In this document: positions 12,834 to 25,069 of the stretch, one piece after another
How the letters are laid out: each line of letters begins with the position of its first letter
How positions within the stretch are numbered: position 1 is the stretch's first letter
Assembly: GCF_019063845.1 (NCBI RefSeq)
Contig: NZ_CP077683.1
Coordinates: 310,001 to 374,000, forward strand
Length of the DNA stretch: 64,000 nucleotides
From: Geomonas subterranea
Lineage (GTDB): Bacteria; Desulfobacterota; Desulfuromonadia; Geobacterales; Geobacteraceae
Reading direction: 5' to 3'
The notes under the pieces: generated by a model
Seen by the model: only the letters and a program-made list of their open reading frames with translations
Databases searched by the model: none
What the model was told of the DNA's origin: nothing
Translations under genes and position numbers: made by a program

Positions 12834-13022
12834 AAACTGGCAAACGTCGAGACGAAATCAGTAAATGTCACAGTAAAATCAGAAAACGTCCCCCTAAAAT
12901 CAGAAAACGTTCCCCTAAAATCAGAAAACGTCCTCCTAAAATCGGAAAACGTCCCCCTGAAATCGGAAAACGTCCCCCTGAAATCGGAAAACGCGGTGAC
13001 AAAATCGGAAAACGTGAACTGA
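12834..13022 (+). repeat. 21-bp tandem repeat, nine units, open in frame
   Basis: Nine units of 21 bp, with central units AAATCAGAAAACGTCCCCCT or its AAATCGG variant. The period is a multiple of three and one forward frame stays open (GTG 12783 to stop 13022), reading heptads such as KSENVPL. There is no ribosome site before the GTG, so translation is doubtful. The outer units are more diverged than the inner ones, as expected for slippage growth. Confidence 0.85.
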
Positions 13023-13221: not shown

Positions 13222-13782
13222 TTAAAAGTCCAAAGGGCTTTTCGGTGCCTGCAGCGTAAGCACGGGGACGCAGTGGGTGTAGATCATGGTCGTCTTCAGG
13301 CTTGCGTGACCGCGTACCGCCAGTACATCGTCCCACTCTGGTGAATCTGATTTAACCTGGTATCCCGCCTCAACGTAGTTTGAGGTGCGAAGCAGTGATC
13401 GCGTTGCTGGCAGGCTATGGGCCGGCGCGATGACAGCGGCCTGAGGGGAGGACTCTGGAAAGGTTTCGGCAGGTTGGGGGGTGGGGATAGCGTCAGGAGG
13501 CCCGGGGGCGAGGCGCTCCTTTTTCTTTAAGAGGGTAAAGTATATAGAAACAGCATGGGCCGCACGTTGTCGCTGATTCGCTGTCCGGTTTCTCTCCTTC
13601 AATTTCTCACAAAACAGCCGCACCCGGTCTGATTTGGACTCAGGTGGAGAATACCTCTCGCAAAAATCAAGATAATATCTTAGCCACTGCAGGTACTCCG
13701 CATGCAGCGCAGGTGGGACCCGCGACTGCGTCAGAAGATGCAAGAATGCCGACACCACCGGTTCAGGAATACCATTCATCAC
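13222..13782 (-). pseudogene. intI: Integron integrase (intI) with internal in-frame deletion
   Basis: The ORF is 186 aa; Geobacter-type integron integrases are about twice that. Residues 1-75 match the N-terminal SAM-like domain (PEPVVSAFLHLL, QWLRYYLDFC). Residues about 130-155 (SNYVEAGYQVKSDSPEWDD) are the linker ahead of the core-binding region. At about residue 156 (near 13320) the frame jumps to the extreme C-terminus (RGHASLKTTMIYTHC ... SPLDF), which keeps the last box His and the catalytic Tyr (about 168). The region with the first catalytic Arg, the box-II HxxR and the integron-specific helix is missing, so recombination activity should be lost. Its divergent position next to a cassette array is canonical for an integron. 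Confidence 0.85.
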
Positions 13783-13789
13783 TTCGCCT

Positions 13790-13818
13790 TTGACATGTAT
13801 AGAGGATCTCTATATATT
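13790..13818 (+). promoter_or_regulatory. Candidate cassette promoter Pc
   Basis: TTGACA at 13790-13795, a 17-bp spacer, then TATATT at 13813-13818, pointing into the cassette array. It begins 8 bp outside the intI start codon, where a Pc is expected. Only one -10 base differs from the sigma70 consensus. A perfect inverted repeat lies in its spacer. Confidence 0.7.
13798..13814. promoter_or_regulatory. Inverted repeat between Pc and the integrase promoter
   Basis: TATAGAG-GAT-CTCTATA is a perfect 7-bp inverted repeat. It lies inside the Pc spacer and overlaps the -10 of the opposing integrase promoter, so a bound protein could control both. It does not resemble the LexA boxes seen in many integrons. 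Confidence 0.5.
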
Positions 13819-13839
13819 GCGATGGATTTGTTGTGGCAA
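13811..13839 (-). promoter_or_regulatory. Candidate integrase promoter
   Basis: On the minus strand, TTGCCA (13834-13839), a 17-bp spacer and TATATA (13811-13816) lie 29-57 bp upstream of the intI ATG. The -10 shares bases with the -10 of the divergent Pc. Confidence 0.55.
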
Positions 13840-13887
13840 ATGAAAGTTATTACAGGTGGTGCGTCTTCCCGCTGCAGAGAGGGGAAG

Positions 13888-13919
13888 GGAGGATGGCCGG
13901 TTTTCTGGCCATCCCCCCA
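13888..13919. other. Leader hairpin between Pc and the first cassette
   Basis: GGATGGCC and GGCCATCC form an 8-bp stem around a T-rich loop, with further G/C pairing at the base. There is no U-run, so it is not a standard terminator. It would lie in the leader of every Pc transcript. Confidence 0.5.
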
Positions 13920-13984
13920 ATTGGCACGAATTACGACTTTCACAGTGTGCCATATCAGCACCTTACGTCAATGTTGTTTATGTG

Positions 13985-14049
13985 TGTAAGTTATGTTGCC
14001 CCCGGCGTTGGAGGGATGGCGGCAATTTCCCACTAATAAGTAGTTGGAA
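13985..14049 (+). other. Candidate attI recombination site
   Basis: The first cassette begins at GTTGGAA (14043-14049), the expected attI core, 260 bp from the integrase start. A second GTTGGAG lies near 14006 and may be an accessory integrase-binding site. attI sequences are not conserved between integron classes, so the left boundary is uncertain. Confidence 0.55.
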
Positions 14050-14055
14050 GATAAA

Positions 14056-14616
14056 ATGACAGATACGATATTCAAAGCCAATATTTTCTGGATTCGAATT
14101 GCCAGCGTCATCTTAGTGGCGGGGGCAATTATCGTTTTTATCAGTCCAAACTTTGATTTGATCAAAGCTGTCTTTGCCCTTATTTGCATTGTTGGCGCTG
14201 TATTATGTTGGTCAGTTCCATCGCCTCTAATAATTGTCGATGACACAGGAATAAAATTGCTTCAACGAGGTATTTCAGGGAAGGGACATTTTGATTGGGC
14301 TGCCAATAAAAATGAATGTTGTGAGTGGGATGCCATATATTCAGTTTCAACATGGCGCTCATCAGTCGATTGCGGTTTGACGACCTTTCTCCATTATTCA
14401 ACAGACCCGAATAAACATAATATTGATGGCCAGTGGATTATTGATGAAAACTATCAACACGGAGCAATTCAAATAGAAGCAAGGATTTTTAGAGATTATT
14501 ATAAAATCCTAGAGACTGTAAATCAAAGGGCTGTTAAAGCGACTTATGACAGCAATTCGACGCAGTATGGAACACTGGAGAGGGTGAAGACCCCCGATAA
14601 ATCTGCCCTTGAGTAA
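14056..14616 (+). CDS. Cassette 1: two-helix membrane protein of unknown function
   Basis: 186 aa from ATG 14056, with GGAAG from the cassette's own core site as ribosome site. Two transmembrane helices (about 10-30 and 36-56) are followed by a soluble domain that starts PLIIVDDTGIKLL and contains CCEWDAIYSV. The pattern 'hydrophobic strand, GI, then W-D-x-hydrophobic' recalls the YcxB/bacterial PH-like membrane proteins and recurs in cassettes 5 and 8. It would be the first gene expressed from Pc. AT-rich relative to the flanks. Confidence 0.8.
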   Translation: MTDTIFKANIFWIRIASVILVAGAIIVFISPNFDLIKAVFALICIVGAVLCWSVPSPLIIVDDTGIKLLQRGISGKGHFDWAANKNECCEWDAIYSVSTWRSSVDCGLTTFLHYSTDPNKHNIDGQWIIDENYQHGAIQIEARIFRDYYKILETVNQRAVKATYDSNSTQYGTLERVKTPDKSALE

Positions 14617-14628
14617 TGAAATCGAGCT

Positions 14629-14685
14629 TCCAACCAGCCGGTTGCACGCGGCCTTGAGGCCGGTGAACCGGGCACCACGTTGGTC
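14629..14685 (+). repeat. attC site 1
   Basis: Begins TCCAACC (R'' box), has inner arms GCGGCC/GGCC around TTGA, and ends with the core GTTGGTC at 14679-14685, where the crossover falls after the G. About 57 bp. Confidence 0.85.
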
Positions 14686-14698
14686 AAGAATTGAAGAC

Positions 14699-15001
14699 AT
14701 GGCAGCAGTAAGGATAGATAGCATGTTCACATCCCTCATCATGACCATCATAGTCGGGAACTTGGCATTTTACCTTACGATGTTCAGATTGAACGCAAAG
14801 CATAAGTGTCTTCTCGATCAGTTGCAGTTGGATGGCCGGCTGTATTGTTATTCAATCCCTCAAACAGCCAAACTTATTCAGTTTATTTTACGCAACCTTG
14901 TTAATTTAAAGGATGGTTTGTTACTGATTGCTGGTTACACGATGGTAGCCTGTCTGCTGTTAACATTTGTACAAATAATTTATATGGTACTTTGGCACTA
15001 A
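14699..15001 (+). CDS. Cassette 2: small two-helix membrane protein (copy A)
   Basis: 100 aa from ATG 14699 (in-frame codons upstream are attC sequence). Two membrane helices (about 10-29 and 75-97) flank a roughly 45-residue loop rich in Lys, Gln and Tyr. The function is unknown. The same cassette recurs at 17643-18160 with one amino-acid change (Asn to His in ILRNLVNL), so the copies diverged recently. Confidence 0.75.
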   Translation: MAAVRIDSMFTSLIMTIIVGNLAFYLTMFRLNAKHKCLLDQLQLDGRLYCYSIPQTAKLIQFILRNLVNLKDGLLLIAGYTMVACLLLTFVQIIYMVLWH

Positions 15002-15101
15002 CAGCACCTCCACTCACAATCCAGATCGGACGCTGGAAAATACTCGAACCCACCCATATGGGGCGGGCAGATTTAATGGACAAGCACGTGGGATTGCGTA
15101 G

Positions 15102-15202
15102 GTGCCAACCACACGGATAGACGCGGTCTCTGCGGTGAGTAAAGAGTGGAAGGACGCCGGTACAAGTTGAACGCTCCGCCGGTCATCCGCAACCCGTTGA
15201 TA
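15102..15202 (+). repeat. attC site 2 (long form)
   Basis: Starts GTGCCAACC, ends AACCCGTTGATA with the core G at 15196. About 101 bp with an extended variable centre. It is the same attC as site 7 apart from single-base changes. Confidence 0.85.
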
Positions 15203-15214
15203 AATAGAGAAAAA

Positions 15215-15637
15215 ATGCCTTCAATGAAAAGACTCAGCAGCGTTTGCCATAGTATCGCTCATCACGCGGTGAGTGGTCTGTCCTACGTCCACCCACACCT
15301 CAGGCAAGCATGCAAGACAGTCGGTCTCGATACCATAACGATTGACTTGATGCGCGAGCAGCCATGCCCGGACCAATTCCTGACTATAAAAACGCTTCGT
15401 TTATCATTGAAAGCACTGCAAGAGAGATTAAAAGAGATTGTAAAAGCAGAGGGATTCACGATAAATGACATCGATAGAATTGAGCTGACATTCGAGTTCA
15501 CTGAAGAATTCCGTGATGACTATTGCAGTAACTGCTATGCGCGTCTTGTATCCAGAAGTGGCAAGGTATATGAGCACGCTGTAAACTACATCGGCAAGAG
15601 CATATACCCAACAAGGCCAGTGGACCGGTCGCGATAA
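15215..15637 (+). CDS. Cassette 3: conserved cassette protein of unknown function (copy A)
   Basis: 140 aa, starting MPSMKRLSSVCHSIAHHAV. Soluble and alpha/beta by appearance, with His pairs near the N-terminus and a CSNCYARLVSRSGKVYE strand region. I do not recognise a named family. The last codons (PTRPVDRSR-stop) are read from the attC, so protein end and recombination site overlap. The CDS and attC appear identical to cassette 13 at 21.0-21.5 kb. Confidence 0.75.
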   Translation: MPSMKRLSSVCHSIAHHAVSGLSYVHPHLRQACKTVGLDTITIDLMREQPCPDQFLTIKTLRLSLKALQERLKEIVKAEGFTINDIDRIELTFEFTEEFRDDYCSNCYARLVSRSGKVYEHAVNYIGKSIYPTRPVDRSR

Positions 15638-15669
15638 ACCTGCGCCGGTCACCGACCACGCCGTTGATC
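15606..15669 (+). repeat. attC site 3
   Basis: ACCCAAC at 15606-15612 to core GTTGATC at 15663-15669, 64 bp, with arms GGACCGGTCGCG / TGCGCCGGTCACC. It contains the stop codon of cassette 3. Confidence 0.85.
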
Positions 15670-15688
15670 ATCGAAATGAGGAGAAGGA

Positions 15689-16294
15689 ATGAATGAGTTG
15701 AAATTTCGCATAAAAAATGTCGATTCTGAGGACGAGCAAGAGGTAGATGACGCCTTCGATAGATATTCCTCCCACGTCAAATCCCTGAACCTAAACAAAG
15801 ACTGCGATCTGCTGAAATTTTTTGGCAATGACTTTTTCCACGACGGCGACATTTACGACTTGAAAATCTTTGACGGAAACAGAAACGTAACCTTTAAAGT
15901 GGATGCACTAAACATTCGTACCAAAGAAGAAGACTTCCAATATGTAAATACATCATTTGAGTGTATCTTCAAGGATGTCGTTTGGTTAACCATGGAGGGA
16001 CAACGGATAGATGACCTTAACGATCCGCTGACAGACAGTAATGGTTTGGAGTTTGCGTACAGTGAAATAGATACGCTGACAGAATACATAGAAGATTTCA
16101 AAAATAACTACCGTGGTTCAGAAGCGTTTATGGATGATGAGCCTGAGTTTCACTCAATAATCATTAGATTCACTACACCAGCTGGTTTCTTCGGAATGGT
16201 ATTCAGCAGCGTCTCTGTTGTGCCTTTAGAGCCGTTGGCCTGGCACCTCATACAGGAGAGCGGAAGATATGAGTTGTGTTTGTGGGGCCAGTAA
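15689..16294 (+). CDS. Cassette 4: acidic soluble protein of unknown function
   Basis: 201 aa with a good ribosome site (GAGGAGAAGG) 3-4 bp before ATG 15689. Strongly acidic, no signal or membrane helix. A motif FFHDGDIYDLKIF followed by beta-strand-like sequence resembles the FHDxxI motif seen in immunity-like small proteins; this is a weak similarity, not a family call. It ends before attC 4. Confidence 0.75.
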   Translation: MNELKFRIKNVDSEDEQEVDDAFDRYSSHVKSLNLNKDCDLLKFFGNDFFHDGDIYDLKIFDGNRNVTFKVDALNIRTKEEDFQYVNTSFECIFKDVVWLTMEGQRIDDLNDPLTDSNGLEFAYSEIDTLTEYIEDFKNNYRGSEAFMDDEPEFHSIIIRFTTPAGFFGMVFSSVSVVPLEPLAWHLIQESGRYELCLWGQ

Positions 16295-16308
16295 AAACGA
16301 GAGGTAAG

Positions 16309-16360
16309 AGATCAACCAGTCGTAACAGCGGCCATGCCGCTGTACTCTCAGGCGTTGGCT
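16309..16360 (+). repeat. attC site 4
   Basis: GATCAAC through paired arms CAGCGGC/GCCGCTG to core GTTGGCT at 16354-16360. A short form of about 52 bp. Confidence 0.8.
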
Positions 16361-16376
16361 GAAAAGAAGGAAGGTC

Positions 16377-16973
16377 ATGACTATCGGATTACCTGGAACG
16401 ATAAAGCGCCGAGAGATTCTTACCGCTTCCAAACTGTTGACAGTTGAGGCGGAGGGCATGCCATTGTCAAAGTTTACTAAAGGGCTCATGGTGGGCACAT
16501 TGACGCTTCTGTACTGCATGTTCATTGGTGGCTCAGTCTACAACATTATTAACCATCGATTTCGGGACACTGATGCATTTATTAAAATATTTGCTGCAGT
16601 GTCTGTAATAGCCACAGTTGGTTATGCTGCTGCCACTCTCTTAATTATCAAGAAGAATCGTTCCTCTCTTATTTTTACAGAAGTCGGAATTGCAGGAAAT
16701 GCATTGATATCAGCGAAGTATGAAGATTTATGCGGTTATGCTTGGGAGTCAAGTAGTGGTTTTCTCACAACTGGACAAGCATCAAAAGAGAAGAAAAAGT
16801 CACTTTTTATAACAGCAAATAAAGGATGGTTTCCTGAAGTGAGGTACGCAACACGTTTTGGGACATCAGTATTGGCAAGCTTTGGGTACTATTTTAATTC
16901 TGAGCAAATACAGAAGGTTGAAGAGATTATGGCCAGTCGCGGAATAACGCGACTTCAAGACAGAGAGAGATAG
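16377..16973 (+). CDS. Cassette 5: two-helix membrane protein with PH-like tail
   Basis: 198 aa from ATG 16377, ribosome site AAGGAAGG. A roughly 35-residue N-terminal region, two transmembrane helices (about 39-58 and 70-91), then a soluble domain (start SLIFTEVGIAGNALISAKYE, then CGYAWESSSG). The layout matches cassettes 1 and 8: two helices, a short strand, GI, then a Trp-containing strand, as in YcxB/PH-like proteins (inference). The stop codon overlaps the first base of attC 5. Confidence 0.75.
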   Translation: MTIGLPGTIKRREILTASKLLTVEAEGMPLSKFTKGLMVGTLTLLYCMFIGGSVYNIINHRFRDTDAFIKIFAAVSVIATVGYAAATLLIIKKNRSSLIFTEVGIAGNALISAKYEDLCGYAWESSSGFLTTGQASKEKKKSLFITANKGWFPEVRYATRFGTSVLASFGYYFNSEQIQKVEEIMASRGITRLQDRER

Positions 16974-17042
16974 CCAACCATGCGCTCAGACCATGACCGG
17001 GCGATAAGGCTGCCCGGCAGGTCAAGCGCAGCCCCGTTGGAA
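16972..17042 (+). repeat. attC site 5
   Basis: AGCCAAC to core GTTGGAA at 17036-17042, 71 bp, with paired arms GACCGGGCG-like and TGCCCGG. Confidence 0.85.
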
Positions 17043-17051
17043 CAGGAAATA

Positions 17052-17609
17052 ATGAAACCAGACGAAATTCATGTAGCTGGAATGATCTTGTTATTGGTTG
17101 CGACCGTAGGCGTGACGGCGAGGTTTGGGCGAAAGACATTGAAAAATGTTTTTTGGAATCGACTACTCATCGCAATTTCGGCAGGTGTAATCACTTTTTT
17201 TGCCCTTCCCATGGGCATGATTGTTCAGTTGAAATCGCAAGCATCCAGCAATCCAGCATATCAAAGCCTGCTAACTTCATTGTGTCTTATCATTGTGATC
17301 TTGTGTATAGAAAAGAGAATAGTGGCAATAATTAGCTGCCTAGTCATTTTGATCACTGGGTATAAACTTTGTTCACAATACCAATATATCGTGAATCACA
17401 CTGGCAAATATGCCTATGCTGACCCACTCAGCGGCGAGTTTTTTAACTACCCAAGCTATGATTCCTGGTCAAAAGGGGTGAGTGCACGGCCATTATGGCA
17501 TACATCCTTTACCGGTATCTACAGTGTAGAAGGGTTAAACAGTAGAAATTCCAACCAAACGGGTGGAGACGGACTCCGCGGGGCAGTAAGAGCCAATAAA
17601 AGTCAATAA
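17052..17609 (+). CDS. Cassette 6: four-helix membrane protein of unknown function
   Basis: 185 aa from ATG 17052 (AGGAAAT upstream). Four predicted membrane helices in the first 115 residues (VAGMILLLVATVGV, AISAGVITFFALPMG, TSLCLIIVILCI, IISCLVILITGY), then a roughly 70-residue hydrophilic tail with FFNYPSYDSWSKG. The last 20 or so codons are translated from attC 6. No family recognised. Confidence 0.7.
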   Translation: MKPDEIHVAGMILLLVATVGVTARFGRKTLKNVFWNRLLIAISAGVITFFALPMGMIVQLKSQASSNPAYQSLLTSLCLIIVILCIEKRIVAIISCLVILITGYKLCSQYQYIVNHTGKYAYADPLSGEFFNYPSYDSWSKGVSARPLWHTSFTGIYSVEGLNSRNSNQTGGDGLRGAVRANKSQ

Positions 17610-17649
17610 GAGTTAAGCCGCTCCGCCGCTCACCCTGAAGGCGTTGGTC
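17550..17649 (+). repeat. attC site 6 (long form)
   Basis: TCCAACC to core GTTGGTC at 17643-17649, about 100 bp. It shares ACGGACTCCGCGGG and CCGCTCCGCCGCTCACCC with attC 10, so sites 6 and 10 belong to one subfamily. It contains the stop codon of cassette 6. Confidence 0.85.
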
Positions 17650-17662
17650 AAGAATTGAAGAC

Positions 17663-17965
17663 ATGGCAGCAGTAAGGATAGATAGCATGTTCACATCCCT
17701 CATCATGACCATCATAGTCGGGAACTTGGCATTTTACCTTACGATGTTCAGATTGAACGCAAAGCATAAGTGTCTTCTCGATCAGTTGCAGTTGGATGGC
17801 CGGCTGTATTGTTATTCAATCCCTCAAACAGCCAAACTTATTCAGTTTATTTTACGCCACCTTGTTAATTTAAAGGACGGTTTGTTACTGATTGCTGGTT
17901 ACACGATGGTAGCCTGTCTGCTGTTAACATTTGTACAAATAATTTATATGGTACTTTGGCACTAA
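17663..17965 (+). CDS. Cassette 7: small two-helix membrane protein (copy B of cassette 2)
   Basis: 100 aa, identical to the protein at 14699-15001 except His for Asn in the loop (ILRHLVNL). The match covers the whole cassette including its attC, with only a few base changes, and stops at the core sites. That is the signature of a cassette re-inserted or duplicated as a unit. Function unknown. Confidence 0.75.
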   Translation: MAAVRIDSMFTSLIMTIIVGNLAFYLTMFRLNAKHKCLLDQLQLDGRLYCYSIPQTAKLIQFILRHLVNLKDGLLLIAGYTMVACLLLTFVQIIYMVLWH

Positions 17966-18065
17966 CAGCACCTCCACTCACAATCCAGATCGGACGCTGG
18001 AAAATACTCGAACCCACCCATATCGGGCGGGCAGATTTAATGGACAAGCACGTGGGATTGCGTAG

Positions 18066-18166
18066 TTGCCAACCACACGGATAGACGCGGTCTCTGCGGT
18101 GAGTAAAGAGTGGAAGGACGCCGGTACAAGTTGAACGCTCCGCCGGTCATCCGCAACCCGTTGGAT
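18066..18166 (+). repeat. attC site 7 (long form)
   Basis: TTGCCAACC to core GTTGGAT at 18160-18166. The near-twin of attC 2. Confidence 0.85.
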
Positions 18167-18192
18167 GACTAAAAGATAAATGGGGCTTGTTG

Positions 18193-18644
18193 ATGACCGA
18201 GAAAGAGTACTCCTATAGGTTGAGTAGCTTCGTGTTTGATATGGCAATTGTGGCTTTGTTTCCGATCGCAGGATTTTATCTAAGCTATTTTGCATTGACG
18301 CATGATCTTGATCCGGCAATTAAAGCCATTGTGGTCACTTTTCACCTGCTGACGTTCCTTCCACCGGTGTTCATATTCATAAAATCAAAACAAAAGATAA
18401 CAATTCTAGAGAACGGCATCAGGATGAAGGTGTCTGGAGTGATAGATTGATACTGTGGCAGGACGTTACCCGCACCAAATATGATAAAATTGCGACCCCG
18501 TTTTCACGCAGTAGATTTTGCCTTCCAAACGATTTGGTCATTGAGTCCAAAAAAACGAAGATTTACATCATGGATTCAATAGAACAGTACGATGAAATAC
18601 TCAGGATGCTGGCGGAGAAAATCTCACTACCAGCGAAAAGCTAA
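18193..18644 (+). pseudogene. Cassette 8: PH-like membrane protein, probably frameshifted
   Basis: Two reading frames meet at 18447-18450. The first (ATG 18193 to TGA 18450) encodes two membrane helices and ITILENGIRMKVSGVID. The second continues ILWQDVTRTKYDKI to a stop at 18644. Joined, they give a roughly 150-aa protein with the same two-helix plus GI...W-D pattern as cassettes 1 and 5, so a one-base loss is the simplest reading. The alternative is two coupled genes overlapping by TTGA with a TTG start, which lacks a clear ribosome site. Confidence 0.65.
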
Positions 18645-18647
18645 AAC

Positions 18648-18706
18648 ATCCAACAAGGAGGCGGCACACAGACGCTGACGCGCTGGTGCGCCCCACGACG
18701 TTGAGC
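18648..18706 (+). repeat. attC site 8
   Basis: ATCCAAC to core GTTGAGC at 18700-18706, 59 bp, with inner arms GGCGGCAC and TGGTGCGCC. Confidence 0.85.
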
Positions 18707-18713
18707 AAGAGAG

Positions 18714-19199
18714 ATGACAAAAGGGATAAGAATGTTTCTTTTTGAAAGAAGTTGCGGGATCGAGATTCGGACGGAGGGTGAGCCTTCAATAGACGCCATA
18801 AAAAACGAACTTTACCACTAATTATATCGGTCTGGAGCTTTTGCTGAAAAAACAGATGATGGCATCACTTTTAAACAAGATTTCTTCAGCTCGATGGCAC
18901 GGAAACCTATTGCTGGGATATCTTTCGGAAGAATCATTATTGAGAGGACTGAAAATGGAATTTCGCTGAAATGCCAGCTGAAACTGAAAAATTACCTCAT
19001 TGGTTCAATGCTTTGTGTTGCTTGGCTGGCTGGAATTCAATGGTACACGGAGGGGAAATTAGCCTCTGCGATTATATACCTTTCCTTTTGGGCAGTACTA
19101 TTTGCAGTCATTCATATAATCAGTCATTTTGAGTTTAAGGGCTTTCTGCGTCGAAGTGTAATGACAAGCTCAACCAGCGGCGGCAGCGGTCTCCGCTAG
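18714..19199 (+). pseudogene. Cassette 9: membrane protein gene with in-frame stop
   Basis: ATG 18714 (beside GAGCAAGAGAG) opens MTKGIRMFLFERSCGIEI and meets TAA at 18819-18821. The same frame then runs open to TAG 19197-19199 with coherent sequence (KTDDGITFKQDF, GRIIIERTENGISL) and two membrane helices. One nonsense mutation in a roughly 161-codon gene explains this best. A shorter product from ATG 18894 (101 aa) remains possible but has no ribosome site. The end is read from attC 9. Confidence 0.65.
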
Positions 19200-19230
19200 C
19201 GCTCCGCCGGTGCGCCTTGAGACGTTGGCC
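19168..19230 (+). repeat. attC site 9
   Basis: GCTCAACC to core GTTGGCC at 19224-19230, 63 bp; arms CAGCGGTCTCCGC / GCGCTCCGCCGGTGCGCC. It contains the stop codon of cassette 9. Confidence 0.8.
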
Positions 19231-19261
19231 GCGGGGCCGGAGCCTAATAAAAGAGAAGGCC

Positions 19262-19651
19262 ATGAAAATAGACTTCATCGAAAGTGGTTCCCCGGACTGC
19301 CCACTTCTCCGGATTTATGGAAATGAACCTGGCTCAGCTGCTCTTCTCATTTCAGTTTTCGATCAGCTCGCCAGTGGACATACCAATGAAGTAGCAATTC
19401 ACAGTTTGCCAGATATCGAGTCGGTGAACGGCTGTAAGTTATTTGCCCGCTTGCATCATGAAGATATCGGGATAAGGAAGTGCAGCGAGAAGAACACACT
19501 AGAATGCTTGCTGTCATCAGAGAGTTGGACAAGAATTTCTGGACTGTTAGAGCCATTTACAGAACCAAAGGCTGACGTCCGATATCAGTGGCTTGATGAA
19601 ACGTCGGATATTTCCTTGTTGATCAGCAGTAGCGAGTATGGTGAATGGTGA
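19262..19651 (+). CDS. Cassette 10: soluble protein of unknown function
   Basis: 129 aa from ATG 19262 with AGAAGG upstream. It has DCPLLRIYGNEPGSAALL near the start and ends with a roughly 45-residue segment from ESWTRISGLLEPF to LLISSSEYGEW. No membrane helix or signal peptide. The pattern looks like a conserved stand-alone domain, but I cannot name it. Confidence 0.7.
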   Translation: MKIDFIESGSPDCPLLRIYGNEPGSAALLISVFDQLASGHTNEVAIHSLPDIESVNGCKLFARLHHEDIGIRKCSEKNTLECLLSSESWTRISGLLEPFTEPKADVRYQWLDETSDISLLISSSEYGEW

Positions 19652-19676
19652 AGGGAATTGAATAGAACCCGTTACC

Positions 19677-19702
19677 CCCAAGGGGTCAGGGACAATTAAT
19701 CT
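19677..19702 (+). repeat. REP-transposase-type motif inside cassette 10
   Basis: AGGGGTCAGGGACAATTAAT, a sequence type often seen flanking IS200-like REP-associated transposase genes (from memory). No transposase gene is near, so it would be a solo remnant in the cassette's 3' part. Confidence 0.35.
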
Positions 19703-19718
19703 GAAGCGGGATTGTAAA

Positions 19719-19820
19719 GTGCCAACCACACGGGTGGAGACGGACTCCGCGGGCCGGTGTAAGCGGATAAGAGCCTAAGAAAGCAAAGCCGCTCCGCCGC
19801 TCACCCGCAGCCCGTTAGGC
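19719..19820 (+). repeat. attC site 10 (long form)
   Basis: GTGCCAACC to core GTTAGGC at 19814-19820, about 102 bp. Same subfamily as attC 6; the only site here with the classical GTTAGGC core. Confidence 0.85.
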
Positions 19821-19828
19821 AGGAACAA

Positions 19829-20188
19829 ATGAAATTTGAAGAGCTATACAATCGCATCATTGAGCTATGGCCCGAGGAAGTTGACATTTCCGACGGTTTT
19901 CCATCAGGGGAAAACGGTTACATGTTCCCTACGCTCAGCAGAATAAAAAACCAAATCGAAAACTCAATTGACTTTGAGAACGACCATTGGGGCAACGTCG
20001 GGGCGTGGGCCTTTTTCCAGGCATTCCATGAAACTGCTAAAAAGATGAAGACAAAAGGCGAGAAAACCTTAAAGACACGACTAGTCGAGAAGAAACTCAT
20101 AGACAAGAAAATCCATGCCAACTTGGCACCCGGCAAATGGGATGACGAGTGGGCAGAGTTGCGCGGCGATTATAAAGGATTAGCCTAA
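19829..20188 (+). CDS. Cassette 11: soluble protein of unknown function
   Basis: 119 aa, start ATG 19829 with AGGCAGGAAC upstream (partly from the core site). Mostly helical and charged; WGNVGAWAFFQAFHETAKKM is the most distinctive stretch. Ends KWDDEWAELRGDYKGLA, with its stop inside attC 11. No family recognised. Confidence 0.7.
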   Translation: MKFEELYNRIIELWPEEVDISDGFPSGENGYMFPTLSRIKNQIENSIDFENDHWGNVGAWAFFQAFHETAKKMKTKGEKTLKTRLVEKKLIDKKIHANLAPGKWDDEWAELRGDYKGLA

Positions 20189-20242
20189 CCACTCGGCGGC
20201 ACGCAGGCGCCGACGCGCTGGTGCGCCTCGACACCGTTGGGT
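20183..20242 (+). repeat. attC site 11
   Basis: GCCTAACC to core GTTGGGT at 20236-20242, 60 bp, arms CGGCGGCACGCAG / CTGGTGCGCC. Same short subfamily as sites 8 and 14. Confidence 0.85.
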
Positions 20243-20256
20243 GAAGAAAAATAGAA

Positions 20257-20556
20257 ATGAATCCAATCCCTCCAAGATCAATAGTGCGCCTCAAGAAACT
20301 GTGGCCCCATGCACGACGGCAAGGTCACGAGAAAGGCGAAATAAGAATTATAGGCTACTACTCGAAGCAGGATGGTCTCGACTGTGTGTGGTTAGTAGGT
20401 ACGAATGGGGAGTACGATTGGACGACGGATCATGCGTGGCTATATGACAAATTTGAAATTGTTGAATACTCGAACGAAACGGATTTATTCGGAGAGAACA
20501 GGGATGAAATTCAAGTACTAACAGAAGAAACCATTGAGAGGCTAAAGAATACATGA
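20257..20556 (+). CDS. Cassette 12, first gene: small soluble protein of unknown function
   Basis: 99 aa from ATG 20257. Beta-rich appearance (PPRSIVRLKKLW, then IRIIGYYSKQDGLDCVWLVG and GEYDWTTDHAWLYDKFEIV), similar in style to short SH3-like folds. Its stop overlaps the start of the next gene by 4 bp (ATGA), making this the only clearly bicistronic cassette in the array. Confidence 0.7.
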   Translation: MNPIPPRSIVRLKKLWPHARRQGHEKGEIRIIGYYSKQDGLDCVWLVGTNGEYDWTTDHAWLYDKFEIVEYSNETDLFGENRDEIQVLTEETIERLKNT

Positions 20557-20987
20557 GTTGTACACTGAGAGCAGGCGGTTTAAATTTTGATGTCGATTCC
20601 TTCCTTGCCACAAGCAGTCTCACGCCGTGTGCGATCTTTCGGCGCGGTGAACCGAAATTCCCTGTTTCAAACCCGAAGGGCCGAATTTGCGAAACCTCTT
20701 CCTTCAATGTGGGGGTAAGTGACGCGGAGTTTGGTGATGAGAAGAGCCAGACGCATGATGCGCTGCTGTTTTTGGAAAAGCATGAGAATGAGCTGAAACG
20801 CTTAGCTGAATTTCCGGGAAATGAAGGGACCCAACTCGATTTCGCTATTTATGTTGAACCTCCCGTTTTTGCACAAAGCTACTGTCTCCCACCAAACCTA
20901 CTGCTCCAGATGGGACGTCTAGGCATCGAGTTGTGCATTTCGTGCTATGCGGCACCCGAGGAAGAGTCACACCCAACACCGGCGTAG
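20553..20987 (+). CDS. Cassette 12, second gene: DUF4279-like protein
   Basis: 144 aa, coupled to the preceding gene by the ATGA overlap. An N-terminal strand (GGLNFDVDSFLATSSLTP), an RRGEPKFP motif and a C-terminal half with ALLFLEKHENELKRL and GIELCISCY resemble DUF4279 proteins; this is a judgement by eye. Soluble. The last codons (HPTPA-stop) come from attC 12. A coupled pair in one cassette could be a two-component unit such as effector and partner, but nothing shows toxicity or immunity. Confidence 0.65.
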   Translation: MSCTLRAGGLNFDVDSFLATSSLTPCAIFRRGEPKFPVSNPKGRICETSSFNVGVSDAEFGDEKSQTHDALLFLEKHENELKRLAEFPGNEGTQLDFAIYVEPPVFAQSYCLPPNLLLQMGRLGIELCISCYAAPEEESHPTPA

Positions 20988-21038
20988 ACACTGACGCGGC
21001 AAAACCCGTCGCGCAGGTCACGCCGAGCACCGTTGATA
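20970..21038 (+). repeat. attC site 12
   Basis: CACCCAAC to core GTTGATA at 21032-21038, 69 bp, arms GACGCGGC-like / GTCGCGC. Confidence 0.85.
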
Positions 21039-21050
21039 AATAGAGAAAAA

Positions 21051-21473
21051 ATGCCTTCAATGAAAAGACTCAGCAGCGTTTGCCATAGTATCGCTCATCA
21101 CGCGGTGAGTGGTCTGTCCTACGTCCACCCACACCTCAGGCAAGCATGCAAGACAGTCGGTCTCGATACCATAACGATTGACTTGATGCGCGAGCAGCCA
21201 TGCCCGGACCAATTCCTGACTATAAAAACGCTTCGTTTATCATTGAAAGCACTGCAAGAGAGATTAAAAGAGATTGTAAAAGCAGAGGGATTCACGATAA
21301 ATGACATCGATAGAATTGAGCTGACATTCGAGTTCACTGAAGAATTCCGTGATGACTATTGCAGTAACTGCTATGCGCGTCTTGTATCCAGAAGTGGCAA
21401 GGTATATGAGCACGCTGTAAACTACATCGGCAAGAGCATATACCCAACAAGGCCAGTGGACCGGTCGCGATAA
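21051..21473 (+). CDS. Cassette 13: conserved cassette protein (copy B of cassette 3)
   Basis: 140 aa, the same protein as 15215-15637. The nucleotide sequence from the core site through the attC also appears identical, with different cassettes on both sides. This is recent duplication or repeat capture of one cassette. Function unknown. Confidence 0.75.
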   Translation: MPSMKRLSSVCHSIAHHAVSGLSYVHPHLRQACKTVGLDTITIDLMREQPCPDQFLTIKTLRLSLKALQERLKEIVKAEGFTINDIDRIELTFEFTEEFRDDYCSNCYARLVSRSGKVYEHAVNYIGKSIYPTRPVDRSR

Positions 21474-21505
21474 ACCTGCGCCGGTCACCGACCACGCCGT
21501 TGGGC
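21442..21505 (+). repeat. attC site 13
   Basis: ACCCAAC to core GTTGGGC at 21499-21505. The twin of attC 3, diverging only at the core tail, as expected because that tail belongs to the next cassette. Confidence 0.85.
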
Positions 21506-21519
21506 AATACTGAGGAATA

Positions 21520-21942
21520 ATGAACAGACGAGAAACTTACTTAATGGGGTTGGCCATGCTCTTCTTCTCTGGAAGCATCGCCCTTTGTGCCGCTTGGATT
21601 AGTGGAATCATTAATCCTCTTTTCAAGGACTTCCCCAAAGAACAGATAATAATCAACGTCGTAATTTACTTTACGCCATACCTGGTATTGCTCGGGAACT
21701 TACAATCAGGAATGAAGCTGCACAGAATCAAATCAATTGAAAAAGGCCATAAAAATGCCTTTAATGCCTATGTCTCTGGCACTCTTATCTCGTATGCCGT
21801 TTACATAGCTGCGTTTGTAGTTCCAGTAAAAAGCTTTGCTGGAGGCGCGGCTATCATTGATGGTATATGGATCTTTTTCTCCATAGCCGTAACTGCTGCA
21901 TTGATGTGGCCTGCATTCAAATACAAAAATATCGAAATATAG
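21520..21942 (+). CDS. Cassette 14: four-helix membrane protein of unknown function
   Basis: 140 aa, start ATG 21520 after GAGGAAT. Four membrane helices nearly fill the protein (MGLAMLFFSGSIALCAAWI, INVVIYFTPYLVLLGNL, YVSGTLISYAVYIAAFVV, GIWIFFSIAVTAALMWPAF), separated by basic cytoplasmic loops (KLHRIKSIEKGHK). No family recognised. Confidence 0.75.
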   Translation: MNRRETYLMGLAMLFFSGSIALCAAWISGIINPLFKDFPKEQIIINVVIYFTPYLVLLGNLQSGMKLHRIKSIEKGHKNAFNAYVSGTLISYAVYIAAFVVPVKSFAGGAAIIDGIWIFFSIAVTAALMWPAFKYKNIEI

Positions 21943-21944
21943 AG

Positions 21945-22006
21945 CGCCCAACACTCGGCGACACGCCGACCGCTGACGCGGCGGGTGCGCCTCATTCACG
22001 TTGTGC
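21945..22006 (+). repeat. attC site 14
   Basis: CGCCCAAC to core GTTGTGC at 22000-22006, 62 bp. The core has T instead of a purine at the fifth position. Confidence 0.8.
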
Positions 22007-22017
22007 GAGAAAAAGAA

Positions 22018-22527
22018 ATGATAGACTGGATTTTGAAAAAATTAATTGCCAAACGAAAAGAGCGGTCTTACCTCGAATATAGAAAAAAGGTTCGACCAAG
22101 TATTTCACTGCATAAAAATATCAAAACCCAGGACTTCGTAATAATCGAATGGGCAGCTTGGACTCTGACACACGCACTGCCACGGTCTCAAGGACCTTTG
22201 ATTAAAGTTTCGCATGCGGTAATGAAATCTAAAGCAAAGGAAATAATTACTAAAAGCCTCAACAACTACGGATTTGATGGCCCTAAGGCTCCAAGCCAAA
22301 TTGATTCGATGGAAAAGACAGAAAGCCAAAAATTTCACCGCGAACATCTGGAAGTAAACATTCAGTCTAAGAATGACAACACTGTTCAAGTTTGGCCAAT
22401 GCGGAGACGCAGGAATGATCGATCTATAGCAGTTGGAGAGCCTGAAGATATGTCAGAGATTTCTTTTGATTGCACGGAAGAGGAGTTTTTTCAGGAAATT
22501 GAGTTGGCCTTTGAAAGAGCAAAATAG
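22018..22527 (+). CDS. Cassette 15: basic soluble protein of unknown function
   Basis: 169 aa from ATG 22018. Lys/Arg-rich N-terminal half (LIAKRKERSYLEYRKKV, SKAKEIITKSL), a PMRRRRNDRS cluster and an acidic tail (EEEFFQEIELAFERAK). No motif ties it to a known activity; nucleic-acid binding is a guess from charge alone. Confidence 0.7.
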   Translation: MIDWILKKLIAKRKERSYLEYRKKVRPSISLHKNIKTQDFVIIEWAAWTLTHALPRSQGPLIKVSHAVMKSKAKEIITKSLNNYGFDGPKAPSQIDSMEKTESQKFHREHLEVNIQSKNDNTVQVWPMRRRRNDRSIAVGEPEDMSEISFDCTEEEFFQEIELAFERAK

Positions 22528-22533
22528 GAATTA

Positions 22534-22608
22534 GGCACAACACCGGCATAGACGCTGTCGCGGCAGGATAAACCCCTGCCGCGCAGATCATGCCGAGCCC
22601 CGTTGGCG
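22534..22608 (+). repeat. attC site 15
   Basis: GGCACAAC to core GTTGGCG at 22602-22608, 75 bp, with inner arms GCGGCAGG / CCTGCCGC. Confidence 0.8.
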
Positions 22609-22633
22609 TCACCCGGACACCAGGCCCTTACGC

Positions 22634-22984
22634 TCATGCATCGATCGGTTTGTTAATTTCGTAGCTGTTGTCGCGGAAGGACTGTTTGAGTGAGGAAAGC
22701 TGCTCTTCTGTCATTTCAGCCAGGATTTCGCGCATGTTGGTCTTCGTCACACCCGGCGCACATATCGCCTCTTTGATCCGGTCTTGCAGCGATTGGGGAA
22801 GCGCTGACCCGGCAACGATGCGCCCGATATCGCCGGAATCGCAGAGCAGGCGTTGCCGTGCCTCGCAGTTTCTAGTGATGAAAAAGTTGCTGCCATCCTT
22901 ATACACGAGAAAGTTGTTGCTGCCACAGCCGCCTGCTATCAGTGCCAAGACAGTAATGACAATACCCGAACCTGACCAGCGCAT
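22634..22984 (-). CDS. Cassette 16: reverse-oriented putative lipoprotein
   Basis: 116 aa on the minus strand, with GGAGG 5 bp before ATG 22984. The N-terminus is a lipoprotein-like signal (VITVLALIAGGC), although the -3 position is Ala instead of the usual Leu. The mature part is polar, with two Cys near ITRNCEARQRLLCDSG and a helical C-terminus (EILAEMTEEQLSSLKQSF). The gene runs against the array and has its own candidate promoter, so it does not depend on Pc. Confidence 0.7.
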   Translation of the reverse strand: MRWSGSGIVITVLALIAGGCGSNNFLVYKDGSNFFITRNCEARQRLLCDSGDIGRIVAGSALPQSLQDRIKEAICAPGVTKTNMREILAEMTEEQLSSLKQSFRDNSYEINKPIDA

Positions 22985-23026
22985 GGTTTACCTCCATATC
23001 GAGCTGAACGTTTGCGGTTGCATGTT

Positions 23027-23059
23027 ACCGACTGTACGTCGGTTACACACCTTGTCAAC
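23027..23059 (-). promoter_or_regulatory. Candidate promoter of the reverse cassette gene
   Basis: On the minus strand, TTGACA (23054-23059), a 16-17-bp spacer and TACAGT (about 23031-23036). An inverted repeat ACCGAC-N5-GTCGGT (23027-23043) overlaps the -10 and may be an operator. Confidence 0.45.
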
Positions 23060-23123
23060 GAGCTGGCTCATCGCACGATCGAGAAGCTAAAAGGTCTGCC
23101 CTTGAAAATGGGAAATTAATGAC

Positions 23124-23197
23124 GTCCCAACCAACCGGTTTGACGCCGCCAGCCAAAGAATGCCGGGCTTGCGGGTCAACCGGGCGCCCCGTTGGGG
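23124..23197 (+). repeat. attC site 16
   Basis: GTCCCAACC to core GTTGGGG at 23191-23197, 74 bp, arms AACCGGTTTGACGC / GCGGGTCAACCGGGCG. Confidence 0.85.
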
Positions 23198-23226
23198 GAA
23201 TAGATCTGAGGGGATCTGGAGGACAT

Positions 23227-23703
23227 ATGCTGAGACTGGAGCAGACAGCGGTGACGGGGCGGGAGGATAAACAGGGGTTGCCACCCCATTTAGCTGCCTT
23301 GTCAACGTTTTACGCGGCACTCAACGGGCGCAACCTTGAGTTGATGGCCTCCAACTGGCTGCAGAGCAATGAGGCGGCGATGGATAACCCACTCGGGGGT
23401 ATAAAGCGGGGATGGGAGGAAATCAAGTCCGTCTACCAACGGCTTTTCGCTAGCCCGTCAGAGTACTGGTTCGAATTCTATGATTTCACCCTGCACCTGG
23501 ACGGTAATGTTTTCTACGTGGTGGGGCGGGAGCGGGGAGAGTTCAAGACCGTCGGCACCGTCCTCTCCATGGCGATCCGGACCACCAGGATCTTCACTCA
23601 CCGCGATGGCCGATGGCAGCAGGTTCACCACCACGGATCGATTGATGACCCGGATCTGCTGGCACGGTACCAGGCGGCAGTGAGACCGGGTATTGATAAA
23701 TGA
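23227..23703 (+). CDS. Cassette 17: NTF2/SnoaL-like protein
   Basis: 158 aa from ATG 23227 with GGAGGACAT upstream. It has the cone-fold pattern of NTF2-like proteins (DUF4440/SnoaL type): LAALSTFYAALNGRNLELMA, GWEEIKSVYQRLF, VGRERGEFKTVGTVLSMAIRTTRIF, and DGRWQQVHHHGS at the end. Such domains serve as small-molecule binders or isomerase-like enzymes; the ligand is unknown. Its base composition is closer to the host chromosome than most other cassettes. Confidence 0.75.
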   Translation: MLRLEQTAVTGREDKQGLPPHLAALSTFYAALNGRNLELMASNWLQSNEAAMDNPLGGIKRGWEEIKSVYQRLFASPSEYWFEFYDFTLHLDGNVFYVVGRERGEFKTVGTVLSMAIRTTRIFTHRDGRWQQVHHHGSIDDPDLLARYQAAVRPGIDK

Positions 23704-23732
23704 ATAACTGACTGAGGACGGGCAAAAGGGCA

Positions 23733-23754
23733 AAAGGGGACAGGCTACTTTTCT
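23733..23754 (+). repeat. AAAAGGGGACAGGCTACTTTT motif, copy 1
   Basis: Recurs at 25841-25861 with one change (CTAG for CTAC). The motif is common near REP-associated (IS200-like) transposase genes (from memory); none is present here. Copy 1 sits in the 3' part of cassette 17, copy 2 just past the methyltransferase gene. Confidence 0.45.
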
Positions 23755-23783
23755 GGAGTTGGAGCATCAGCAGAGAACGGTAG

Positions 23784-23832
23784 AGCCCAACCAGACGGCG
23801 GACACCGCCGGTCAAGGCCGCCCCCGTTGGCG
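23784..23832 (+). repeat. attC site 17
   Basis: AGCCCAACC to core GTTGGCG at 23826-23832, only 49 bp, arms GGCGGACACCGCC. The last complete attC of the array. Confidence 0.8.
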
Positions 23833-23842
23833 AAGAAGAGAT

Positions 23843-24130
23843 ATGGACATCTTTCTTGTAGCAGCAATTACAATATCGGAGATCATCACGGGGTGTTGCC
23901 TGTATCACCTCTGGAAAAGCAGGGACAGGTGGCTAGCGAAATTTTTTTGGTCCCTGTTACTTCTTATCCCAGTGATTGGTCCTGCATTTTACGGCTCCAT
24001 GCATAATCCGCCTCCTCCGCAACCAGATGATTTAAAAGCCCCTTTTTCAGATGAGAGTTATTGGGAGAATACCGATGCACGTGAGCCCACAGGTAGCCAT
24101 GAACACCATGACGAGGCGGACCATGGCTAA
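23843..24130 (+). CDS. Cassette 18: small PLDc_N-like membrane protein
   Basis: 95 aa from ATG 23843 (GAAGAAGAG upstream). Two helices, with WSLLLLIPVIGPAFYG closely resembling the phospholipase-D/cardiolipin-synthase N-terminal (PLDc_N) membrane domain, followed by a Pro- and His-rich polar tail. No catalytic HKD domain follows. Its 3' end overlaps the start of the next gene. Confidence 0.7.
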   Translation: MDIFLVAAITISEIITGCCLYHLWKSRDRWLAKFFWSLLLLIPVIGPAFYGSMHNPPPPQPDDLKAPFSDESYWENTDAREPTGSHEHHDEADHG

Positions 24131-24938
24131 ACCAGAGAGAGGACCGGTCCCAACCAAGTGGGTGGACCGGTCTTTTATGCCAGCTGTTATTGCGTTAATG
24201 CTTTTTATCCAGGTTTTACTGCTATCCAGCCATTGGGTCGAAGCCCAGGAAAACAATGCCTTTAAGAACTACAGAAAGGTCGGTTTGAACGACCATCTCT
24301 TGCTTTTGGATCCTCAGTTAGTTTTCAAGAAAGTCCAGACGGATCCCGCAATTGAAGAGGCTGATAGTTCTGAATTTGGAGATGAATTCATCAGTGTCCA
24401 ATGCGGCCGAAGAACGTTGGTCATCGGCTTTAGCAACGGGCCAAGTGAAGATCCGAATTATGAAATCATAGCTCGCAAGGATAAAAAGGTCGTACGCCGG
24501 AATATAGGAGCAACCAGTTTAGCGGTCTCATCATCTTGTCAGATATACGCTGCAGGTCATACCGACAACAGTTTCGATATGCATAGAAAATTTGTCATCA
24601 CAGACACAGCTATCAACGAGGTGAGGCAACCCTTTTACTTGGTCGACAAAGTGTGTCCTACCAGCACCGCAGCGACATTAACAACAGAACCATGTGGCAA
24701 AGGAAGTGTTGTTGCAACGCTGCCAAAGGGGGCAGAGGTTCGCGTATTACTCTCGGAATGGTTCCTTACCGATGAGTACGACGATAAGCATAGCAATTGC
24801 AAATCAGGCGACGGGACTAAGGAAAGTTATCTGGTGAGTACTCCATTTGGCCTTGTCGGTTGGGTTGACACAACAAAGGGAACCATTTGGGGAACCCCGG
24901 GCATGCCGCTTTCCTGCATTGTTTATAATGGTGATTGA
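24123..24938 (+). CDS. Exported protein with SH3-like domain, at the broken end of the array
   Basis: 271 aa from ATG 24123. A secretion signal (PAVIALMLFIQVLLLSSHWVEA) precedes a polar domain, and residues about 185-260 look like a bacterial SH3 domain (GSVVATLPKGAEVRVLL, then FGLVGWVDT). The positively charged n-region (KWVDRSF) is translated from half an attC (24147-24172). A start at ATG 24178 would avoid the attC sequence but leave no basic residue before the hydrophobic core. It overlaps the previous gene by 8 bp. Confidence 0.65.
   Translation: MAKPERGPVPTKWVDRSFMPAVIALMLFIQVLLLSSHWVEAQENNAFKNYRKVGLNDHLLLLDPQLVFKKVQTDPAIEEADSSEFGDEFISVQCGRRTLVIGFSNGPSEDPNYEIIARKDKKVVRRNIGATSLAVSSSCQIYAAGHTDNSFDMHRKFVITDTAINEVRQPFYLVDKVCPTSTAATLTTEPCGKGSVVATLPKGAEVRVLLSEWFLTDEYDDKHSNCKSGDGTKESYLVSTPFGLVGWVDTTKGTIWGTPGMPLSCIVYNGD
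24147..24172 (+). repeat. Half attC remnant 18
   Basis: GTCCCAACCAAGTGGGTGGA has the R''/L'' half of an attC, but no matching L'/R' half with a GTTRRRY core follows. It is the downstream edge of cassette 18, cut by deletion. Confidence 0.55.
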
Positions 24939-24979
24939 CTGGGCAGGGTGTGACGTCAGGAACAGGCGTAAAGAGAAGG

Positions 24980-25030
24980 GTGCCAACAAGGCTTGTGATC
25001 CGCCGGTGCGTCCCCGCGCGGTCAGGGGCG
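24980..25030 (+). repeat. Degenerate attC remnant 19
   Basis: GGTGCCAACAAGG followed by TCCGCCGGTGCGTCCCCGCGCGG looks like an attC 5' half plus arm, again without a GTTRRRY core. It marks the downstream end of the integron. Confidence 0.45.
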
Positions 25031-25069
25031 TAATCCAATCTATTCCCACTTGAAAGGAATTTTCCCACC

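Follow-up and report, generated by a model that had tools for sequence, protein, structure and literature searches.

How does a cassette array come to stand beside an integrase gene that has lost its core, and can such an array still move? The question is raised by a locus of a Geomonas-like bacterium, in which a long series of small ORFs and attC sites lies next to a shortened intI gene (Table 1). The window, by which we mean the whole stretch of 64,000 nucleotides analysed here, corresponds to bases 310001-374000 of a single-contig genome of 4.99 Mb, and the array stands out from it by its GC content (0.47 vs 0.60 for the window). Our analysis makes it very probable that the locus is a sedentary chromosomal integron, whose array was built and whose IntI was then disabled by an in-frame deletion of about 840 bp, while attI and the likely Pc were kept.

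Table 1. Features of the integron and its intI-side flank, with positions numbered from the first base of the window
Feature	Position	Strand	Remarks
21-bp tandem repeats	12855..13015	.	just beyond intI 3' end; flank, outside integron; TRF
intI relic, 186 aa	13222..13782	-	extra N-terminal SAM-like domain and C-terminal tail with Tyr; ~840 bp lost vs L107
deletion junction	13311..13331	-	19 nt aligning to neither L107 flank
candidate Pc, TTGACA-17-TATATT	13790..13818	+	faces array; 11/12 consensus matches
attI region	13900..14049	+	ends in crossover core GTTGGAA at 14043
cassette 1	14043..14678	+	attC 14628-14685; R1, box match
cassette 2	14679..15195	+	attC 15103-15202; copy of cassette 7
cassette 3	15196..15662	+	attC 15606-15669; identical to cassette 13
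cassette 4	15663..16353	+	attC 16310-16360
cassette 5	16354..17035	+	attC 16972-17042
cassette 6	17036..17642	+	attC 17549-17649
cassette 7	17643..18159	+	attC 18067-18166; copy of cassette 2
cassette 8	18160..18699	+	attC 18648-18706; gene apparently frame-broken (ORF reading)
cassette 9	18700..19223	+	attC 19168-19230; gene apparently interrupted/frame-broken (ORF reading)
cassette 10	19224..19813	+	attC 19720-19820
cassette 11	19814..20235	+	attC 20183-20242
cassette 12	20236..21031	+	two ORFs; attC 20971-21038
cassette 13	21032..21498	+	attC 21442-21505; identical to cassette 3
cassette 14	21499..21999	+	attC 21946-22006
cassette 15	22000..22601	+	attC 22535-22608
cassette 16	22602..23190	+	attC 23125-23197; likely gene on minus strand, 22634-22984
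cassette 17	23191..23825	+	attC 23785-23832; SnoaL-like protein
cassette 18	23826..25037	+	two ORFs; degenerate terminal attC ~24981-25037 (sequence; missed by R1)

attC sites and cassettes

A chromosomal integron is recognised by at least two attC sites, each with R''/R' boxes and arms that form an imperfect hairpin, and the region 14043-25037 holds 17 complete ones of 48-101 bp between its small ORFs. A sequence-only reading had proposed 17 sites of 49-102 bp, all of which are present, and 18 cassettes; this latter count stands with the qualification that the last cassette ends in a decayed site, with GTAATCC in place of GTTRRRY, and it also contains half an attC-like R'' near 24149. Rfam at gathering scores gave no match in the window and a script requiring long ungapped complementarity returned 1 attC only; since these searches were too strict or had no fitting family, they were dropped for a covariance model, R1, built from the window's own 17 sites. 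Recovery of these sites (17/17 at E 2.3e-5 or better; next match 12 bits, E 0.75) is by construction, and the independent test was a search of the intI loci of 20 relatives, where R1 found a total of 56 sites, every one of them on the strand opposite intI; they fall in 15 loci, and L008, L010, L035, L044 and L062 have none. The check by attC models that the earlier reading had called for thus came out in favour of the array. Bottom-strand folding gave a mean z of -1.6 for the 17 sites vs 0.0 (sd 1.0) for 81 control stretches; because z lies above -0.5 in 4 of the 17 and the top strand scores similarly, we regard this test as supportive only.

Across the genus, R1 gave attC-like matches in at least 18 of 19 genomes among the matches listed, the genome of the window being counted. 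Within genus genomes such as G017, G008 and G011, attC-like sites, many of them 95-102 bp long, are dispersed over many contigs or positions distant from any intI found. They may represent CALINs, which are attC arrays without a functional integrase, or single sites. A lone attC-like site (39.6 bits; G000:C1:389491-389552, minus strand; L223 5492-5553) also lies about 15 kb past the window, and a membrane-like ORF of 411 aa is situated downstream of it.

In a true array the R' box at the start of a cassette, having come with that cassette, is expected to be complementary to the R'' box that closes the same cassette. This is what we observed: 54 of 68 variable positions were complementary and 10 of 17 cassettes perfect, compared with 31 of 68 positions and 0 of 17 in the control pairing of R' and R'' within a site, and none of 100,000 permutations reached 54/68. 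An earlier placement of the start of cassette 1 at 14007, with which the box match was 51/68, was replaced by 14043. Moreover, the array contains duplications: cassettes 3 and 13 match base for base over 467 bp, while cassettes 2 and 7 show 4 differences in 517. On the left the repeats run 1-2 nt beyond the cassette, and on the right 4 nt, which fits units moved at the G|TT crossover, and duplications with such edges indicate site-specific cassette mobility in the past. Gene conversion, or integrase activity in the very recent past, could also account for the identity of cassettes 3 and 13. As for cassette contents, Pfam gave a single clear match among the cassette ORFs other than the fragments of cassettes 8 and 9 (SnoaL-like, cassette 17), and PADLOC, run for defence functions on 10 cassette ORFs, again without these fragments, returned nothing with E below 0.01.

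The integrase relic, attI and the candidate Pc

Alignment to full-length IntI proteins of the same group bears out the earlier claim that the 186-aa ORF has lost most of its core in frame: on a 464-position profile of 24 intact proteins it matches positions 8-153 and 435-464, and 154-434 are missing. By arithmetic from the alignment, the net loss relative to the intact copy L107 is 840 bp, or 280 codons, and the remaining ORF is free of stops. The N-terminal domain and the final Tyr had also been described as kept. This holds for the Tyr, which is retained together with the last GH of the tail, while the first Arg, the Lys and the HxxR motif, which together with the tail Tyr we take to be the catalytic residues of IntI, are lost. 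The surviving N-terminal part, by contrast, is the extra SAM-like domain of this group (PF13495, 31.1 bits, cut-off 27), which assigns the relic to the N-extended type of IntI; the canonical SAM-like domain and most of the catalytic domain have gone. In intact relatives the open frame spans 450-567 aa, and in the intact protein L006 the canonical SAM-like domain (153-234) and the catalytic domain (255-449) follow behind the N-terminal extra part. The best whole-protein TIGR02249 score is 25.3 bits vs a cut-off of 265, and with its core deleted the relic does not qualify as a functional IntI.

The search for a second intact intI that the sequence-only reading had recommended found none in the 4.99-Mb genome: a full-length IntI query detected two relics and nothing else at or below E 1e-15, and the best TIGR02249 match was 83 bits vs the cut-off of 265. 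Matches below this cut-off are uninformative because 14 of 14 control genomes give them too. The second relic, L120, at 2.20 Mb (G000:C1:2202005-2202429), has a promoter-like stretch, and we found neither attI similarity at this relic nor an attC match in 12 kb.

At the intI end of the array, the sequence identifies an attI region, which up to GTTGG is common to L107 and to the broken loci L109 and L113 and is not shared by the second relic. The candidate Pc lies 8 bases upstream of the intI start and is conserved in 5 aligned copies except for one base in L120 (TTGACT). A promoter scan returned 2 promoter-like sites vs 0.8 +/- 0.9 expected in shuffles, a count not above chance, and the conserved stretch might serve intI instead of the array. 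By eye, an inverted repeat (TATAGAG-GAT-CTCTATA, 13800-13817) is seen between the promoter hexamers near the intI start and is a possible operator.

Relatives within the genus share parts of this neighbourhood. The methyl-accepting chemotaxis gene beside intI is also found at the intact L107 and at L118, where only the last 47 codons of intI are left, and an fn3 gene is common to the window, L109 and L113, the latter two retaining only the first ~54-61 codons of intI. The relic was matched in 13 of 19 genus genomes, five of which have long open frames (G002, G008, G014, G015 and G016) and eight broken copies only. The 21-bp tandem repeat beyond the 3' end of intI comprises 5 units in the window, and its pattern occurs nowhere else in the genome. 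Tandem repeats of 21 bp, with units that differ among loci, also lie downstream of the intI remnants of L118 and L120; none were reported beside L107, L110, L111 and L115.

Recurrent core deletions and the history of the locus

A profile of the N-terminal part of IntI was run against 141 genomes of the order and matched in 71 of them, with 103 rows corresponding to 101 loci, since two loci give two rows. An open frame of at least 450 aa without known break is present at 45 loci, not all of which have been individually inspected; two further frames of at least 450 aa are altered, by a 31-codon deletion in G019 and by a displaced end in G067:C14, and several of the remaining loci are truncated by contig ends. 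Furthermore, a protein search restricted to 102-325 aa yielded 82 relatives; in 32 of them an N-terminal start and the C-terminal end are both present and the part between has gone. Breakpoints lie scattered over 40-237 on the left and 245-443 on the right. Junction overlaps vary between none and 15 nt, in keeping with mixed illegitimate recombination. A deletion made by the integrase itself at GTT cores was considered and set aside, as no shared core motif was apparent by eye, an informal judgement.

In the order, 22 junctions allowed both an N-part and a C-part to be placed, and 15 of them are in frame (p 0.0009 vs one third). The 22 exclude L192, whose frames differ by model although its deletion is a multiple of 3 by alignment, L120 with several breaks, L169 with 424 nt between its parts, and L180 and L184, which have no N-part; L176b was merged with L168b as the same event. 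They include, despite weaknesses, L170 (tail 16 bits), L168a (one stop), L185 (not in frame according to the model, although its deletion measures a multiple of 3 in a short gapped alignment), L197 (absent from the junction alignment) and L207 (left flank misplaced there). As a control, short direct repeats of 4-8 nt or more within these intI genes were found to be in phase in 41-54% of cases, in 49 sequences freed of exact duplicates only and thus including near-identical copies and one 31-codon deletion allele (L013). Accordingly, p for 15 of 22 becomes 0.007 at an expected share of 0.40, 0.024 at 0.45 and 0.067 at 0.50, and phase-biased short repeats account for much of the in-frame excess over one third.

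These numbers bear on a rival explanation, in which the truncated IntI has been retained as a small functional protein and, with the extra SAM-like domain and the tail, might for instance regulate by binding DNA or by poisoning oligomers. The raw in-frame count, the two-ended form among the homologous proteins and the stop-free relic speak for it. However, the scattered breakpoints leave no common core domain, the repeat-phase control takes much of the weight from the in-frame count, and the protein search is biased towards open frames. Selection for a small protein, to which the 15 of 22 had pointed, was thereby reduced to a minority reading that we consider very improbable for this locus. 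Only marginally less improbable is the broader proposal that core-deleted IntI of this clade still act, for example by occupying attI or by poisoning integrase multimers, so that in-frame two-ended deletions persist in greater numbers than the way they arise would account for; if true, deletion would serve as a switch, thrown repeatedly, that turns a moving array into a fixed one.

Somewhat better placed, and still unlikely, is an array that continues to move because mobile elements or co-resident strains provide an integrase in trans. The identity of cassettes 3 and 13 agrees with it, as does the presence of cassette 2, at 92%, in the array of G011, whose intI is likewise broken; but the searches of the own genome yielded no intact IntI, and the identity may predate the deletion or reflect gene conversion. 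That the deletion is an artefact of assembly or sequencing is hardly credible, since the genome is in a single contig, the junction lies outside any long repeat and many different deletions of this kind occur in independent genomes.

Our preferred history is that of an array built before its integrase was lost. Box matching and the base-exact duplications show that an extended, double SAM-like IntI built the array through attI x attC and attC x attC recombination. Comparison with intact relatives shows that an internal in-frame deletion then took out the canonical DNA-binding domain together with the greater part of the catalytic domain, which left 186 codons. Judging from the literature and from the recurrence in relatives, illegitimate recombination is the probable source of the deletion, which was probably kept because an active integrase was costly or useless in this lineage. 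With attI and the likely Pc remaining, the first cassettes would probably still be transcribed, with the order of the cassettes fixed. The array is presumably frozen, as the sequence-only reading had proposed, and an integrase could still come on a mobile element.

Comparison with known integrons

Inactivation of integrases is common in soil and freshwater (PMC2426708, PMC3108266): intI pseudogenes were described in about a third of cases (PMC2426708), and 43-46% of intI genes were reported as inactivated (PMC3108266). In Xanthomonas, the chromosomal integrons descend from one ancestral locus that was inactivated repeatedly in individual lineages, through a frameshift, a stop or a large deletion, with arrays kept (PMC12444791), and a fitness cost has been measured for active IntI1 (PMC3510236). 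Taken together, this widespread inactivation, its recurrence in Xanthomonas and the cost of IntI1 make an ordinary reason for the loss likely. Our searches of open-access literature for work on Geobacter or deltaproteobacterial integrons and on inactivated intI genes listed no paper dealing with internal deletions in this clade, a weak sign that none exists.

The integron described here is thus a well-resolved further case of an already documented process. What our analysis adds is the architecture with two SAM-like domains, a corrected start for the first cassette, a conserved attI and a likely Pc, own-genome searches without a second intact IntI and the recurrence of core deletions. The locus is a clean natural example of an integron that presumably froze once its array had been built, with a single integrase lesion and with attI and the likely Pc kept. 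Since the same flanking gene is found at an intact congener and other congeners carry other lesions, the question of arrays kept and integrases lost can be tested within one genus. The intact congener is Geomonas propionica Red259 (L006/L107), whose integron has the same chemotaxis neighbour, a related attI and promoter and similar attC sites, and differs in having a complete IntI of 465 residues.

Nemergut et al. 2008 defined IntI clade 15, which is deltaproteobacterial and includes Geobacter, and described its N-terminal gain of ~120 aa as a gene fusion (PMC2426708). The present integrase is alike in being a deltaproteobacterial IntI with such a gain, which is seen here as an extra SAM-like domain (PF13495) that survives together with the tail. 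As in Xanthomonas (PMC12444791), one locus was repeatedly inactivated and arrays were retained, but phylum and IntI clade differ, and the locus lies beside ilvD there and beside a chemotaxis-receptor gene here. Finally, the array resembles a CALIN in having attC sites without a working integrase; unlike in a CALIN, attI, the likely Pc and both ends of intI are in place, so that its origin can still be read.
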